A DNA stretch of 64,000 bases from Gemmatimonas phototrophica (GTDB lineage Bacteria > Gemmatimonadota > Gemmatimonadetes > Gemmatimonadales > Gemmatimonadaceae), in contig CAMBNV010000006.1 of NCBI GenBank assembly GCA_945869195.1, positions 1 to 64,000 on the forward strand, written 5' to 3'. Shown here one piece after another: positions 49,003 through 56,361 of the stretch. Both the position numbers and the translations under genes were made by a program. Within the stretch, counting starts at the first letter, position 1. The number at the start of each line of letters is the position of its first letter. The notes under the pieces are model-generated. The model saw only the letters and a list, made by a program, of their open reading frames with translations, was not told where the DNA came from and ran no database searches.

Positions 49003-50271
49003 CTAGTAGAGGAGATAGGGCCGTACGCGACGCTGGAAGGCCACGATCTCCGGTTGCACGCGATCGATCACTTCGTCAGGGTCGTCTCCGCGAAGCAGCG
49101 CGATCCGTGCCGACGCTGCCCCCATCCGCCGGTCGAAGGTGCTGGCCGTGAGCCGCAGCGAATCGGGTGCCGACTTGGCGATCGCCCAGAGCAGGGCCGC
49201 CCCGATGCGCGCCACCTGCACCCGCGCCCGCGCCTCGACGACGATACGCACACCCGGAATCTCCCGGCCGGCAAACTTGGCGTCGCCCGGCTGGATCGGC
49301 GTGAAGCGGACCGCTTCGAATCGGACGCCGCCGAGCCCTCGCTCTTCGAGCGCGGCCGCGACCTGCTTGGCATCGAGCCAGGAGGCGCCGACCTGCTGAA
49401 AGGGACGATCGGTCCCGCGTCCCACCGACAGGTTGGACCCCTCGAAGGGCACCAGCGCCGGATAGAGCAGCGCGCTCTCGGTTGTCCGCATCGCCGGCGA
49501 CGGGATAGTCCACGGGAGCCCCGAGTCTTCCCACCACATCGAACGCCGATAACCCGACATTTGGACCACCGAGAGCTCGACGGGAATGTGCAGTTCGGCG
49601 GCGAACCAGCGAGCCATTTCTCCCATCGTCATACCGTGGCGCAGCGGGGCTGGATATAATGCGTATGCGGCGCCGCGGCGCTCCGGGGTGGGATCCTCGG
49701 GATTGGCGAGTGCGGAATCGAGCAGAAAGCCTTCGGCGCGCCCGCCGAGCGGGTTAGGGCGGTCGAGGACGACAAACGGGATGCCGACGCGGGCGGCCGC
49801 CCGCATCGCATAGACCATCACGCCAACATAGGTCCAGGTGCGCGTGCCGATGTCCTGCAAATCGAAGACGAGCGCGTTCAGGTCTCGGAGGAGGCTGTCG
49901 GGAGGTCCGACGGTCTCCCGGCGATACAGTGAATGCACCAGGAGCCCGGAACGCGCGTCGACCTGGTCTGGCAGGTTTTCCACGTCCTGGTCACCGCGAA
50001 TCCCGTGCTCTGGCGAGAAGAGACGGACGAGCTGGACGTTGGCGCGCTTCACGCGCAGATCACCCTGGAGCAGATCGACGTCGGAGGTGCCCTTGGCGTC
50101 GACGCCGGTGTGGTTGGTGATGAGCCCGATCCGTCTCCCCGCGATCAGGTGGAGCGAATCATCGAGCAGAACCGTGATCCCGGGGCGCAGTGCCGCACGC
50201 TCCGGCGCTCGCCGCGCGCCCTGGGCGCGCGGCGGCGTGGCACAGGCCACGCTCGTCCAGAGCAGCAGCAT
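49003..50271 (-). CDS. namZ: NamZ-type (DUF1343) exo-beta-N-acetylmuramidase, secreted
   Basis: 422 residues from ATG 50271. A short lipoprotein-like signal (MLLLWTSVAC) is visible; a GTG at 50337 is possible but would overlap the divergent nagZ start. The family motif LFSPEHGIRGDQD lies about 83-95, with LVFDLQDIGTRTWTYVGVM, VLDRPNPLGG and SVGRGTDRPFQQVGASWLD, all conserved in YbbC/NamZ. NamZ removes MurNAc from the non-reducing ends of wall fragments. Directly divergent from a NagZ-AmiE fusion. Confidence 0.88.
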   Translation of the reverse strand: MLLLWTSVACATPPRAQGARRAPERAALRPGITVLLDDSLHLIAGRRIGLITNHTGVDAKGTSDVDLLQGDLRVKRANVQLVRLFSPEHGIRGDQDVENLPDQVDARSGLLVHSLYRRETVGPPDSLLRDLNALVFDLQDIGTRTWTYVGVMVYAMRAAARVGIPFVVLDRPNPLGGRAEGFLLDSALANPEDPTPERRGAAYALYPAPLRHGMTMGEMARWFAAELHIPVELSVVQMSGYRRSMWWEDSGLPWTIPSPAMRTTESALLYPALVPFEGSNLSVGRGTDRPFQQVGASWLDAKQVAAALEERGLGGVRFEAVRFTPIQPGDAKFAGREIPGVRIVVEARARVQVARIGAALLWAIAKSAPDSLRLTASTFDRRMGAASARIALLRGDDPDEVIDRVQPEIVAFQRRVRPYLLY

Positions 50272-50304
50272 CCCCAGTATCCGACCTCCGTCCCATACCG
50301 ACTG

Positions 50305-53232
50305 ATGCCTTTTCGACCGTTGCCCATGATCTTCCACGCGTCGTTCCTCCGGCTGGCCGGACTCTCCGGCATAGTTGCCACACTGTCGTGCGCCGCGCCT
50401 GCGTCGCCCGGTGCTCTGACGCCCGAGTCGCGCGGTGCCCTGCGCGACGTCCCGGCGTCACTGACCGCGCCATTGCCGCTCGCGGCGACTCGGTGGATTG
50501 ACTCGACACTCGCCTCGCTCTCGTTGCGTGATCGCGTCGCCCAGATGATGATGATCTGGGTGCTCGGGGATTATACCAGCACGACCGACTCCTCGTTCGT
50601 TTGGGCCTCCGACCGGATCGCGCTCGATCACGTCGGCGGCGTGGTGATGTCGCTCGGGTCGCCGATCGAAGTCGCAGCGAAAGTGAATGCGATGCAGCAG
50701 CAGTCGCGGATCCCGCTCCTCGTGGCGTCGGACGTCGAACCCGGGCTGGGCCGACTCGAGGGCGGCACCTTCCTGCCGAATCTCCTGCGCGGTGGCGATG
50801 CCACCGTCTTGCCGAGCAACATGGCGATCGGTGCCAGCGGAAGCGTCCGGCATGCGCAGGCCGCGGGCCGCATCATCGGCCTCGAGTCCCGCGCGATCGG
50901 GATCCATGTGGCGTTCGCGCCGGCGGTCGACATCAACAACAATCCGGCCAATCCGGTGATCAACGTGCGCTCGTTCGGCGAGGAGCCGAACGCGGTCGCC
51001 CGGCTCGGCGCGGCCTTCGTGCTCGGGCTCCAGGAGACCGGCGTCGCGGCGACGCTCAAGCACTTCCCCGGTCACGGCGACACCGACACCGACTCGCACA
51101 ACGCGCTCCCGATCGTGTCGGCCTCGCGTGAGCGCCTCGATCAGATGGAACTGGTCCCATTTCGGGCCGCACTGGCGGCGGGCGCAGCCGCCGTAATGAG
51201 CGCGCACATCGCGCTCCCCGCGATCTCGCGCGATTCAACACCGGCGACGCTGGTGCCGGCGATCATGCACGGCCTGCTCCGTGACACCCTCGGGTTCCGC
51301 GGCCTCGCGTTCACCGATGCGATGGACATGCGCGGCGTCGGCGCCGGCTACGGACTGGACGAGAGTTCGGTGCGCGCCGTCCTCGCGGGCAACGATGTCC
51401 TCCTCATGCCGGCCGACATTCCCGCCGCGATCTCCGCGGTGACGGCCGCCGTCGAGCGCGGCGAAATCCCCGCGGCACGCATAGAGGCCTCGGTCCGTCG
51501 CATTCTCGAGTACAAGATCCGAACGGGAGCGATCCAACGCCCCTTCGTTTCCCTCGATTCCCTGCGTACGGTCGTCGGCACTGCCGCACACCGCGCGATC
51601 GCGCAGGCCATCGCGAACGACGCGGTCACGCTGCTCCGGAATGACGACGGACAGATCCCGTTCGCGCCGCGCGGCCGCACCGCGGTCATCACCTTCACGA
51701 GCGACGCGGACCTCAGCGCCGGCCGCACCTTTGGCGCCGAGCTCCGCACCCTCCTGCCGGAGACGCGCCTGCTGCGGATTACCCCGGGGACGCCCCGCGC
51801 GCGTCTCGATTCCCTACTCCGCCCAGACGAGCGCGTGGTGTTCGCGACCTTTGTGCGCACGATCGAGGGGGAGGGGCGGTTCGCCGTCGGTGCGCACGTA
51901 GCGCGCTGGGTAGACTCCGTCGCAATCGCCCGACCGCTGACCGTGGTCGCGTTCTCGAATCCGTACGTCGTACGCGAGTTTGGCTGGGTGTCTGGCTACA
52001 TCGCCACGTACGGCCGCGGCGACGCGACCGAGCGCGCCGCGGCACAGGCGCTCGCCGGACGCATTCCGTTCCATGGGCGCGCACCAATCTCCCTGCCGGG
52101 CTTCTACAGCGCCGGCGACGGCGCCCCCCGAGACACGGTGGCACAGGCCACGCTCGAGGACTCGCTCCGCACGATCCTCACGCGGGGCGTGCGCGACTCG
52201 GTCTTCCCGGGCGCGATCGCGGTGATTGGCGACCGGCGAGGTATCCTCACGCAGGTGAGCGCGGGCCGGATCGACTGGGCGGCTGACGCACCGACGCCGG
52301 ACCTCAACACCGTCTGGGACATCGCCTCGCTCACGAAGGTCGTCGGGATGACGACCGCGATGATGCAGCTCGTCGAGCAGGGGCACGTGGACCTCGACGC
52401 ACCGGTGCAGCGGTACCTTCCCGAGTGGACCGGGCCGCACAAGGAACGTGTGACGGTGCGGCACCTGCTCACCCACTCGGCCGGACTTCCGGCGTTCCGC
52501 CAACTCTGGAAACTGACGCCTAACGCCGACTCGGCGCGCGCGCTGCTCCTGAACACGCCGCTCGACACCGTTCCCGGCGCGCGCATGGTGTACTCGGACA
52601 TCGGCGCGGTCCTGCTCGGCTTCGTCGTCGAGCGGGTGGCCCGCGAGCCGCTCGACCGGTACCTCGACCAGCGCGTGTTCGCGCCCCTCGGCTTGCGCGA
52701 CACCCGCTATGCGCCACCGAATGCCTGGCGCTCGCGGATCGCACCCACCGAACAGGATCCTTGGCGCGGCCGACTCCTCCGGGGCGAGGTGCATGACGAA
52801 AACGCCGCCTTCCTTGGGACGCCAGTCGCCCATGCAGGTCTCTTCAGCTCGGCGAGCGACCTCGCGCGTTTTGCACGCATGCTGCTCAACGAGGGGGTGC
52901 TCGACGGCGTCCGTCTGATTGGCACCGCGACGGTGCGTGACTTCACGCGCGTGCAGAACGTGCTGGTGTCCAATCGCGCGCTCGGCTGGGAGACGCCCAC
53001 GGGCACCAACTCCGCGGGCCGCGTGATGCGGCGACCTGCCTACGGGCACACGGGCTTCACGGGCACGTCAATCTGGATCGACCCGACGACTGACCGCTTC
53101 GTCATCCTGCTGACCAACCGCGTCAACCCAACCCGAGAGAACTCGCGGATCGGCCCACTGCGCACGGCCGTCGCCGACCTCGTCACCACGCGCGCGATCA
53201 GTGAGCGGAACGCGATCCACCGGGCGCCCTGA
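50305..53232 (+). CDS. nagZ: NagZ-AmiE fusion: GH3 beta-N-acetylglucosaminidase with serine-beta-lactamase-fold amidase
   Basis: 975 residues from ATG 50305 (or 50326, where a lipoprotein signal ending TLSC begins). Extension to 49933 rejected as shadow of namZ. GH3 domain (about 60-400): KHFPGHGDTDTDSH (252-265, catalytic Asp-His loop) and FTDAMDM with nucleophile Asp338. Middle GH3 C-like domain (about 415-615). C-terminal beta-lactamase-fold domain (about 630-970): S-x-x-K as S675-L-T-K678, Y763-S-D and H915-T-G, as in B. subtilis AmiE-type muramoyl-peptide amidases. Predicted periplasmic. Removes GlcNAc and peptide from wall fragments. Confidence 0.9.
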   Translation: MPFRPLPMIFHASFLRLAGLSGIVATLSCAAPASPGALTPESRGALRDVPASLTAPLPLAATRWIDSTLASLSLRDRVAQMMMIWVLGDYTSTTDSSFVWASDRIALDHVGGVVMSLGSPIEVAAKVNAMQQQSRIPLLVASDVEPGLGRLEGGTFLPNLLRGGDATVLPSNMAIGASGSVRHAQAAGRIIGLESRAIGIHVAFAPAVDINNNPANPVINVRSFGEEPNAVARLGAAFVLGLQETGVAATLKHFPGHGDTDTDSHNALPIVSASRERLDQMELVPFRAALAAGAAAVMSAHIALPAISRDSTPATLVPAIMHGLLRDTLGFRGLAFTDAMDMRGVGAGYGLDESSVRAVLAGNDVLLMPADIPAAISAVTAAVERGEIPAARIEASVRRILEYKIRTGAIQRPFVSLDSLRTVVGTAAHRAIAQAIANDAVTLLRNDDGQIPFAPRGRTAVITFTSDADLSAGRTFGAELRTLLPETRLLRITPGTPRARLDSLLRPDERVVFATFVRTIEGEGRFAVGAHVARWVDSVAIARPLTVVAFSNPYVVREFGWVSGYIATYGRGDATERAAAQALAGRIPFHGRAPISLPGFYSAGDGAPRDTVAQATLEDSLRTILTRGVRDSVFPGAIAVIGDRRGILTQVSAGRIDWAADAPTPDLNTVWDIASLTKVVGMTTAMMQLVEQGHVDLDAPVQRYLPEWTGPHKERVTVRHLLTHSAGLPAFRQLWKLTPNADSARALLLNTPLDTVPGARMVYSDIGAVLLGFVVERVAREPLDRYLDQRVFAPLGLRDTRYAPPNAWRSRIAPTEQDPWRGRLLRGEVHDENAAFLGTPVAHAGLFSSASDLARFARMLLNEGVLDGVRLIGTATVRDFTRVQNVLVSNRALGWETPTGTNSAGRVMRRPAYGHTGFTGTSIWIDPTTDRFVILLTNRVNPTRENSRIGPLRTAVADLVTTRAISERNAIHRAP

Positions 53233-53242
53233 GCCAATCGCC

Positions 53243-53274
53243 CTGCCGGGATTCGTGATCGTCATCGCCGGCAG
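53243..53274 (+). terminator. Possible terminator after nagZ-amiE
   Basis: 7-bp arms CTGCCGG (53243-53249) and CCGGCAG (53268-53274) with an 18-nt loop, 10 bp past the stop. No T-run, so weak. Confidence 0.35.
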
Positions 53275-53302
53275 CTAGACACTCCGCACCGAGCCGTCCG
53301 GC

Positions 53303-53330
53303 TTGTTCCCGGCCCTTTCAGCCCTATATT
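53303..53330 (+). promoter_or_regulatory. Promoter candidate before the A-type Fe-S carrier
   Basis: TTGTTC (53303-53308) and TATATT (53325-53330), 16-nt spacer, 60 bp upstream of the start codon. Confidence 0.5.
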
Positions 53331-53390
53331 GCAGGGAAGCTCGATTAGGCCGCGACCGCGGCCCAGAACTCATCATCACCGAGGCGTCCG

Positions 53391-53747
53391 ATGAGCACCA
53401 TCAACACCATGGAACTCACCCTCAGCATCACGCCGTCCGCCAGCGCCGAAGTCCATAAATTCATGACCGCAGAGCAGGTGGCGCCTGAAGTCGGCGGCCT
53501 CCGCGTGAGCGTCCAGCCGGGCGGGTGCTCGGGCTTCAAATACAGCCTCCTGATCGAGGACAAGCCTGCCGAAGACGACACGATCCTGAATCAGGGCTCG
53601 TTCAATGTGTTCGTCGACCCGTTCTCGATGCAGTACCTCAACGGCGTCGTCATCGACCACGTGACGTCGATGCAGGGGTCCGGCTTCACGTTCAAGAACC
53701 CGAGCTCAACCGGCGGATGCGGCTGCGGTAGCAGCTTCTCGGCCTGA
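53391..53747 (+). CDS. A-type iron-sulfur cluster carrier (ErpA/SufA/IscA-like)
   Basis: 118 residues. Three-Cys cluster site: GGCSGFKY (Cys46) and GCGCGSSF (near 109-116). Transfers or holds Fe-S clusters. It has its own promoter and terminator and so is probably expressed alone, even though it lies among wall-recycling genes. Confidence 0.92.
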   Translation: MSTINTMELTLSITPSASAEVHKFMTAEQVAPEVGGLRVSVQPGGCSGFKYSLLIEDKPAEDDTILNQGSFNVFVDPFSMQYLNGVVIDHVTSMQGSGFTFKNPSSTGGCGCGSSFSA

Positions 53748-53799
53748 TCTAGAGTGGTTGTTGGTCGAACGCCGTCGCCGAAAATCATTCCAGCGGTGT

Positions 53800-53837
53800 A
53801 CGAGGCCCGTGGTCCCGTTGGTGGACACGGGCCTCGT
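53800..53837 (+). terminator. Terminator after the Fe-S carrier
   Basis: 12-bp perfect stem (53800-53811 pairs with 53826-53837), 14-nt loop, followed by GCCGTTCTC. Separates the Fe-S carrier from the transporter gene. Confidence 0.7.
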
Positions 53838-53890
53838 GCCGTTCTCACCGCGGACGCTCGGCATCCCGAGAGACCATCCCATCGAGGCCT

Positions 53891-55423
53891 ATGTCGCCGA
53901 CTGAACTGAGCAGTGGATTCAGCGCCCTCGACTGGGGGATCCTGGTCGTCTATCTCGCCGGCACTACGGCCCTCGGGGTCTGGCTCGGTCGCGATCAGAA
54001 GAACGCCCGCGACTATTTCGTCGCTGACGGCTCGATCCCCTGGTGGGCAGTCCTCTTTTCGATCGTGGCGACCGAGACAAGCGCGCTCACCTTCATCTCG
54101 ATACCGGGCCTCGCGTATCTCGGGAATTTCACGTTCCTCCAGGTGGCCACCGGCTATCTCCTCGGACGGATCGTGGTCGCCTATACGCTGCTGCCCCGGT
54201 ATTCCGAGGGGCGACTCGTCACCGCATACGCGCTCCTTGAACAGCGGTTCGGCCTCGCGACACGGCGCTTTGCCTCGGTGACCTTCATGGTCACGCGCGC
54301 GTTCGGTGATTCGGTGCGAATCTTTGCCACCGCGATCCCCATCGGACTGATCATCGGACCGTTCGTGCCAGCCGAGTATGTGACACCCGTGGCGATCCTC
54401 TCGCTCGGCGCGACCACGTTGCTCTACACCTATCATGGCGGCATGCGCGCCGTGGTCTGGACCGATGTGATCCAGACATTCGTCTACCTCGCCGGCGGAG
54501 TCGGCGCCGTCTATCTGATCGGCGCGGGCGTCGACGGCGGTTGGAGCCGCATCCTCGCGGACGCGGGTGCGGCGGGGAAACTGCAGTTCATCGACACGTA
54601 CGCGGGCATCGACCGGCCGCACACACTCTTCGCTGGCCTGCTCGGCGGCGGATTTCTCGCCATGGCATCGCACGGCGCGGACCAGCTCATCGTGCAGCGC
54701 CTGCTCACCGCAAACTCTCTGCGTGATGCGCGTCGCGCGCTGATCGGTAGCGGCATCGCGGTGATCGCGCAGTTCGCCCTCTTCCTGCTGATCGGTGTCG
54801 GCCTCTGGTCGTTTTATCAGGGACGCAGCTTCAGCGCCCCTGACCAGATCTTCCCGACGTTCATCATCGAGGAGATGCCGCCGGGCATGACCGGCCTCGT
54901 GATCGCCGCGATCCTCGCGGCCGCGATGAGCACGATCTCAGGATCGCTCAACTCGCTCGCCGCCGCGACGACCCACGACCTCTGGGTGCCGTTCCGCGGC
55001 CAGGGGGCGGACGGCCCCCAGTTGCTCCGCGTTTCTAAAATCTTCACGCTCGTCTGGTTCGTCATCCTTATCGGTGGAGCGCTGCTATATCATGCGGAAG
55101 GGACGCCCGTGGTCGTAGTCGCGCTGTCGATCGCGTCGTTCACCTACGGTGGACTACTTGGAGGATTCTTCCTCGCGATGCACTGGCCGCGCGCCATCCA
55201 ACGCGACGCGATCCTCGGAATGTCCGTCGGGATTGGCGTCATGAGCGTGATCGTCTTCGCCGGCCGGCTCGCGACGGCCATTCCGTCTCTTGCCGGTCCT
55301 CTCGCTCCGTTCATCGGAATCGCCTGGCCCTGGTACGTCCTGATCGGAACCTCGATTACCTGTGGCGCAGGGGTCCTCTCCTCACTCACACACGCCGCGC
55401 CCTCGAGGGCGCCTTACGCCTGA
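53891..55423 (+). CDS. Sodium:solute symporter (SSS family)
   Basis: 510 residues, about 13 transmembrane helices spread across the protein. Typical N-terminal DWGILVVYLAGTTALGVWLGRDQ, TSALTFISIPGLAY and GHGADQL-like MASHGADQLIVQRLLTANSLRDARRALIGSG, with AAILAAAMSTISGSLNSLAAATTHDLW for the sodium site. Substrate not readable from sequence; the kinase 14 bp downstream and the secreted hydrolases nearby suggest an amino sugar (inference). Confidence 0.9.
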   Translation: MSPTELSSGFSALDWGILVVYLAGTTALGVWLGRDQKNARDYFVADGSIPWWAVLFSIVATETSALTFISIPGLAYLGNFTFLQVATGYLLGRIVVAYTLLPRYSEGRLVTAYALLEQRFGLATRRFASVTFMVTRAFGDSVRIFATAIPIGLIIGPFVPAEYVTPVAILSLGATTLLYTYHGGMRAVVWTDVIQTFVYLAGGVGAVYLIGAGVDGGWSRILADAGAAGKLQFIDTYAGIDRPHTLFAGLLGGGFLAMASHGADQLIVQRLLTANSLRDARRALIGSGIAVIAQFALFLLIGVGLWSFYQGRSFSAPDQIFPTFIIEEMPPGMTGLVIAAILAAAMSTISGSLNSLAAATTHDLWVPFRGQGADGPQLLRVSKIFTLVWFVILIGGALLYHAEGTPVVVVALSIASFTYGGLLGGFFLAMHWPRAIQRDAILGMSVGIGVMSVIVFAGRLATAIPSLAGPLAPFIGIAWPWYVLIGTSITCGAGVLSSLTHAAPSRAPYA

Positions 55424-55437
55424 CCAGAATCCAGTCA

Positions 55438-56361
55438 ATGTCACAGCTCGTGGTGGGTGTCGATGGTGGTGGAAGCAAGACTGAAGTGATCGTCGCTGAT
55501 GGTCGTGGCAAGGAGATTGCCACGCTCACCGGTGCGCCGTCCGCCGTCCGCCCAAGCGATGTGCTGCACTCGGCCGAGGTGATTGGTGCCCTCGTCCGTG
55601 ATGCGCTCGCGCTGGCCGACTCGGCCGAGCGCCCTCGGGTACTCACCGTGGGCGTCGCCGGCGTGGGGCGAGAGCGCGAGCGTCACGCGTTGCAGCGTGC
55701 CCTCGACGGTGAAGGAATCGCCGACGAGGTCCAGGTCGTGACCGATGCCGACGTCGCAATGGAAGATGCGTTCGGCGACGGACCGGGGATTTTGCTGATC
55801 GCGGGGACGGGCTCGGTGGCGTTCGGCCGTGGGCCGACGGGCACCTTTGTTCGCTGCGGCGGGTGGGGCAACGTCTGTGGCGACGAGGGCAGCGGTACCT
55901 GGATTGGCCGCCGCGCGCTCAGCGTGATTACCGCGTCGCACGACGGCCGCGAGCCAGAGACGCGCCTGGCAGGCGCCGTGCTCACCGCGCTCCAACTTGA
56001 CGAGGTGGACGATCTCGTCGCCTGGGCCTCGACAGCAACACCAAAGGACATCGCCGCGCTCGCCGTGCCGGTGATGACGCTCGCCGCCGAACGCGACCTG
56101 CGAGCCAACTCGATCTGCACGCTCGCCGCCGAGGAGCTCGTTCTCCATGTGCGAACCCTGGCGCGGCAGCTCTTCGTCGACGAACGGGCATCGCTCCCGG
56201 TCGCGCTGGCGGGCGGGATGATGCCTCGCGGGTCATTCTTGCGACGGCTTGTCGAGCACCGTCTCAAGTCCGCGGTGCCAGGCTCGCACCTCCACGGTGA
56301 CGAAGTGCTCCCCGCTCGCGGCGCCATCAAGCTCGCCCGCAAGGCACTCGGGGGCGCCTAG
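55438..56361 (+). CDS. BadF/BadG-family sugar kinase (GlcNAc/MurNAc kinase candidate)
   Basis: 307 residues. ASKHA ATPase fold: GVDGGGSKTEVIVAD (phosphate 1), VVTDADVAMEDAFGDGPGILLIAGTGSVAFG (phosphate 2), GGWGNVCGDEGSGTWIGRRAL and VALAGGMMPRGSFLRRLV (adenosine). This group includes N-acetylglucosamine kinase and MurNAc/GlcNAc kinases (MurK). Coupled to the symporter, 14 bp apart, so it probably phosphorylates the imported sugar. Confidence 0.87.
   Translation: MSQLVVGVDGGGSKTEVIVADGRGKEIATLTGAPSAVRPSDVLHSAEVIGALVRDALALADSAERPRVLTVGVAGVGRERERHALQRALDGEGIADEVQVVTDADVAMEDAFGDGPGILLIAGTGSVAFGRGPTGTFVRCGGWGNVCGDEGSGTWIGRRALSVITASHDGREPETRLAGAVLTALQLDEVDDLVAWASTATPKDIAALAVPVMTLAAERDLRANSICTLAAEELVLHVRTLARQLFVDERASLPVALAGGMMPRGSFLRRLVEHRLKSAVPGSHLHGDEVLPARGAIKLARKALGGA

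Follow-up and report, generated by a model that had tools for sequence, protein, structure and literature searches.

A conserved locus of Gemmatimonas phototrophica with a proposed role in the salvage of cell-wall sugars

Known systems and the layout of the locus

Two known systems, one from Firmicutes and the other from Bacteroidota, resemble the locus described here. The murQ-murR-murP-amiE-nagZ-ybbC(namZ) cluster of B. subtilis (PMC5061867) encodes NamZ, NagZ and AmiE together; free sugars are made outside the membrane prior to uptake by the PTS carrier MurP, and MurQ acts downstream. The murTKQ operon of T. forsythia specifies a transporter of the sodium-symporter superfamily and, after it, a MurNAc kinase of the BadF family (PMC5790795), and the uptake is of non-PTS type (PMC5790795, PMC7670621). 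MurK of this species phosphorylates MurNAc only, and Clostridium MurK phosphorylates both MurNAc and GlcNAc (PMC5790795); AmpG is present in T. forsythia, and AnmK is not predicted there (PMC7670621). RmNag3 of R. marinus, a species also devoid of AmpG, is an exported two-domain GH3 protein with a C-terminal beta-lactamase domain, similar to one of the proteins discussed below; it differs in being unclustered with NamZ, symporter or kinase, and it was assayed on chitooligosaccharides, not on muropeptides (PMC6987092).

The window analysed here is a stretch of 64,000 nt from Gemmatimonas phototrophica (contig CAMBNV010000006.1, assembly GCA_945869195.1), in which the locus occupies positions 49003-56361. 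Four intact ORFs, for NamZ, a NagZ-AmiE fusion, an SSS symporter and a BadF kinase, are found there, with one more gene in their midst:

49003..50337, minus strand: NamZ (DUF1343), predicted exo-beta-N-acetylmuramidase and predicted lipoprotein (Pfam NamZ_N and NamZ_C)
50305..53232, plus strand: NagZ-AmiE fusion, predicted lipoprotein (ATLS-C), GH3 and beta-lactamase fold in a single 975-aa ORF
50524..51510, plus strand: GH3 (NagZ) catalytic domain of the fusion, residues 74-402 (Pfam, 264 bits; PDB matches; motifs)
52171..53151, plus strand: predicted AmiE-type serine hydrolase domain of the fusion, beta-lactamase fold, residues 623-949 (Pfam Beta-lactamase, 222 bits; motifs)
53391..53747, plus strand: IscA/ErpA-type Fe-S biosynthesis protein, 118 aa (Pfam Fe-S_biosyn, 70 bits)
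53891..55423, plus strand: SSS-family sodium:solute symporter, proposed MurNAc/GlcNAc importer (SSF; TIGR00813; PDB 5nv9)
55438..56361, plus strand: BadF-type kinase, proposed MurNAc/GlcNAc 6-kinase (BcrAD_BadFG; PDB 8zo3)

An earlier note on this DNA had described a DUF1343/NamZ gene divergent from a NagZ-AmiE fusion, and a sodium:solute symporter coupled to a BadF-type kinase. The ORFs and Pfam domains agree with both statements, and 14 bases separate the symporter stop from the kinase start. The list of four genes given in that note was correct, but it overlooked the IscA/ErpA-type gene that separates the fusion from the symporter. This gene, kept inside the cluster in 74 of 80 loci, has no evident link to wall sugars and is probably a conserved neighbour outside the pathway. 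The predicted start regions of NamZ and of the fusion, with start sites that are provisional, share some 30 bases in head-to-head orientation (50305-50337), and a similar overlap of BLAST alignments is seen in some relatives (L081, L084, L087).

Unlike in B. subtilis, NagZ and AmiE of Gemmatimonas are fused, the locus contains neither murQ nor murR, and a sodium symporter with a separate kinase stands in place of the PTS carrier. Unlike in T. forsythia, murQ is unlinked from the locus, the kinase resembles the dual-specific Clostridium enzyme much more closely than T. forsythia MurK, and the genome has AnmK and no AmpG that we could find. All the parts are known elsewhere; it is their combination that differs from both model systems, and by analogy the locus may work like the NamZ/NagZ/AmiE cluster of B. 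subtilis joined to MurT/MurK of T. forsythia, for which growth rescue in E. coli is reported to need both proteins.

We consider it very probable, with good support from the gene context, that the locus serves the salvage of cell-wall sugars, with periplasmic stripping of muropeptides, sodium-coupled uptake of MurNAc/GlcNAc, phosphorylation by the kinase, and then MurQ; we infer the cellular location, the substrates, the sodium coupling and the order of steps. NamZ and the NagZ-AmiE fusion, exported and probably lipid-anchored, would act jointly in the periplasm: the GH3 domain would take off GlcNAc, the beta-lactamase-fold domain would cleave the peptide from MurNAc, and NamZ would release MurNAc from the non-reducing end, leaving free MurNAc, GlcNAc and peptide. 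The SSS symporter would bring in MurNAc, GlcNAc or both together with sodium; the BadF kinase, translationally close to it, would make the sugar 6-phosphate, and MurQ, whose gene lies elsewhere in a run with those for AnmK and another GH3 enzyme, would convert MurNAc-6-P to GlcNAc-6-P. In many relatives, a NagB-PIG-L protein encoded beside the symporter is a candidate for the GlcNAc-6-P step. If this is true, an entire family of bacteria common in soil and fresh water salvages wall sugars by a route free of PTS and AmpG, with every outer step encoded in one locus, and the two known systems are joined in a third phylum.

Hydrolases, symporter and kinase

NamZ_N and NamZ_C domains span residues 70-444 of the 444-aa NamZ protein (209 and 134 bits; Pfam cut-offs 26.9 and 25), assigning it to the NamZ family (GH171), with a predicted MurNAc-releasing activity. 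The protein has a single copy in the genome, its best PDB match is 4k05, and 74 of 78 relatives retain the Glu of its PEHG motif (residues 109-112). In the fusion, the GH3 domain is followed by a weak GH3_C match (24 bits, under the Pfam cut-off) and then by the beta-lactamase fold, which is also matched by the PBP4B model with 150 bits; with this domain order and the active-site motifs, the protein shares the architecture of RmNag3. The best PDB matches of the GH3 domain are GH3 N-acetylglucosaminidases, B. subtilis NagZ/YbbD among them. Its motifs KHFPGHGDT, D-S-H and FTDAM are nearly invariant in 49-50 relatives, and the SLTK, YSD and HTG motifs of the beta-lactamase fold are kept in 71-72 of 72. 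From family knowledge, we take the motif residues in all three domains to be catalytic. Architecture and motifs point to an AmiE-type domain, a predicted amidase, at the C-terminus of the fusion. Both hydrolases have lipobox-like N-termini when read by eye (TSVA-C in NamZ), which suggests that they are exported. In several same-genus relatives, the fusion and Fe-S genes flank an acyltransferase-3 gene (L084 6639-7757, L081 9031-10161, L082 8011-9123).

The symporter matches SSF in Pfam with 138 bits and TIGR00813 in NCBIfam with 206 bits, above the cut-off of 184, and thus belongs to the SSS family, whose carriers transport many different substrates. The best PDB match is the sialic acid symporter 5nv9, which we take to be SiaT. 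Arg135 of SiaT has no aligned Arg in the Gemmatimonas protein; Arg136, Asp140 and Arg143, close by, are nearly invariant among relatives. The substrate is presumably MurNAc and/or GlcNAc, taken up with sodium. Some relatives from the family and order have a second, distant symporter added to the locus; such SSS proteins are encoded at L064 7513-9378, L070 7497-9257, L071 7044-8822 and L075 7040-8899, and perhaps in two-symporter loci there is one symporter per sugar.

The kinase contains a BcrAD_BadFG domain (Pfam, 107 bits), and its best PDB match, with a single-sequence query, is the Clostridium acetobutylicum MurNAc/GlcNAc kinase 8zo3 (125 bits). A profile of the kinase matches 8zo3 over its full length (210 bits, profile positions 3-302), with the GGWG and GDEGSG region in common, as compared with a partial match of 32 bits to MurK of T. 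forsythia. The nearest characterised relative is therefore a MurNAc/GlcNAc kinase, and by sequence the protein belongs with the Clostridium MurK / NagK group, presumably acting on the same two sugars. It does not look like the T. forsythia type of MurK, as GGWG is found where the S133-P134-L135 pocket described for that enzyme (PMC10465942) would be expected. The sole NCBIfam match, to the NagK equivalog NF046058 (NagK_SO3507), scores 95 bits against a cut-off of 370. No second kinase of the same kind was found in the genome, which encodes one ROK kinase elsewhere.

Gene order in relatives and the substrate of the symporter-kinase pair

All 16 relatives from the same genus have their genes in the order NamZ, NagZ-AmiE, Fe-S gene, symporter, kinase. 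Among relatives from the family and order, the kinase-symporter pair persists, and NamZ or NagZ/AmiE is missing in some. A scan of named genomes produced 80 loci, nearly all from Gemmatimonadota and many from Gemmatimonadaceae or Gemmatimonas. The kinase adjoins the symporter in 79 of them, with a median gap of 15 bases, and NamZ and/or NagZ/AmiE is present in each of the 50 named loci with at least 8 kb of upstream sequence; some relatives' loci have no NamZ or no detectable NagZ. The arrangement recurs at the levels of genus, family and order, far beyond chance.

In 46 of the 80 loci, the Fe-S gene and the symporter are separated by a gene for a NagB-PIG-L fusion of about 650 aa. This insertion is seen at L081, L084, L088, L092, L063, L098 and in most of L121-L200. 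The fusion protein scores 860 bits with NF002557 (a glucosamine-6-phosphate deaminase-like model) and has Pfam Glucosamine_iso and PIG-L domains, the latter of de-N-acetylase fold; its place beside the symporter ties the symporter and the kinase to N-acetylated amino sugars.

The earlier note had read the locus as one of wall salvage and had named a gene order not conserved in relatives as evidence against this; the order is conserved, and the reading gains support from the gene identities, from the affinity of the kinase, from NagB-PIG-L in the 46 loci, and also because the nearest structure of the symporter is a transporter of an acidic N-acetylated sugar. Its mention of MurNAc/GlcNAc kinases among those of BadF type likewise fits 8zo3 as the nearest solved relative; we infer the substrates of both symporter and kinase.

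A different pathway could be built from the same genes, namely uptake of GlcNAc or chitin oligomers, in which NagZ would free GlcNAc, the symporter and the kinase would handle GlcNAc only, and MurNAc would be ignored. RmNag3, which has the same architecture as the fusion, is active on chitooligosaccharides (PMC6987092), NagK_SO3507 is the only NCBIfam model that the kinase resembles, albeit below cut-off, and NagB-PIG-L is a GlcN-6-P-type gene. We nevertheless regard this pathway as unlikely: chitin use has no need of NamZ or of the AmiE-type domain, murQ and anmK are conserved, and the closest solved kinase takes MurNAc as well as GlcNAc (kinetics in PMC5790795). More improbable still is a symporter-kinase pair that merely neighbours the wall hydrolases and serves an unrelated solute, such as another amino sugar or sialic acid. 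The nearest transporter structure is indeed that of a sialic acid carrier, and the IscA-type and lipid synthase genes are equally conserved neighbours with no obvious link, so that conservation alone is no proof of a single pathway; against this, the gene just ahead of the symporter is time and again NagB-PIG-L, and the kinase falls in the NagK/MurK group.

From MurNAc-6-phosphate onwards

In the salvage of wall sugars, which we favour, MurQ would act next. The earlier note was right that MurQ is absent from the window, but the pathway does not halt there: the genome search that it proposed for murQ and anhydro-MurNAc kinase finds both on contig C8, where murQ (359 bits) is followed by anmK and then by a GH3 gene, and this rules out a pathway that lacks MurQ. 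The run lies at L204 5058-8937, and the anmK start overlaps murQ. By eye, no signal peptide is evident in its GH3 enzyme, which may be a cytoplasmic companion of the periplasmic one. Among 41 genomes, 40 have murQ above cut-off; murQ and anmK are adjacent in all 30 relatives' loci, 24 of which include the GH3 gene as well within the short stretch covered. No AmpG was found in the genome with TIGR00901, which fits breakdown before uptake.

By sequence criteria, the E. coli-type pathway of MurNAc recycling is represented by MurQ and not by a detectable NagA. With TIGR00221, just fragments below 42 bits were found in all 41 genomes of the order, and in a six-frame search of the G. phototrophica genome the best of all 33 candidates scored 28 bits. 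Nine over-threshold places in the genome correspond to seven ORFs for generic amidohydrolases, mostly signal-bearing, none of which exceeds 41 bits to nagA. Of 121 genomes sampled from the phylum, none was above cut-off when 14 candidates per genome were scored, a search of limited sensitivity, given that B. subtilis failed at 1e-20; six genomes of one distant family in this sample have NagA matches of 92-182 bits. A search of the genome for NagB with PF01182 gave no match, and NagB-PIG-L is absent. Neither nagA nor nagB, which the same note had asked to be sought in the genome, is detected, and the real gap lies at the deacetylation of GlcNAc-6-P. Stand-alone PIG-L proteins of the genome were rejected as substitutes for NagA; read by eye, one resembles bacillithiol BshB, and another is large, with a signal-like N-terminus.

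One tentative solution, which we hold to be possible and somewhat doubtful, is a NagA-free salvage, where the PIG-L domain of NagB-PIG-L would deacetylate GlcNAc-6-P and the NagB domain would deaminate GlcN-6-P, and genomes that lost the fusion would reroute GlcNAc-6-P, for example, via a mutase to GlcNAc-1-P and UDP-GlcNAc. Such a NagA-less continuation is a testable novelty; if true, it defines a missing step, GlcNAc-6-P deacetylation, with a single candidate enzyme. The motifs PHPDD and DPHGTH of the fusion are invariant in all 55 sequences. Its NagB part carries GKTGHIGFNEP, in which Thr presumably stands at the catalytic Asp position of E. coli NagB, so that the deaminase activity of this part is uncertain. 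LmbE-like enzymes include de-N-acetylases acting on GlcNAc compounds (PMC4101496); a literature search gave nothing useful on the NagB-PIG-L fusion or on wall recycling in Gemmatimonadota.

Counting long-frame matches only, NagB-PIG-L is encoded in 25 of 41 genomes. In the symporter-kinase tree, G. phototrophica sits beside a genome (G014) that has the fusion in its locus, and the absences are scattered over the tree; its loss from G. phototrophica is therefore the simplest reading. Short PF01182 matches in other families of the order are poor candidates for NagB, since those inspected adjoin pentose-phosphate or Entner-Doudoroff genes and resemble 6-phosphogluconolactonases.
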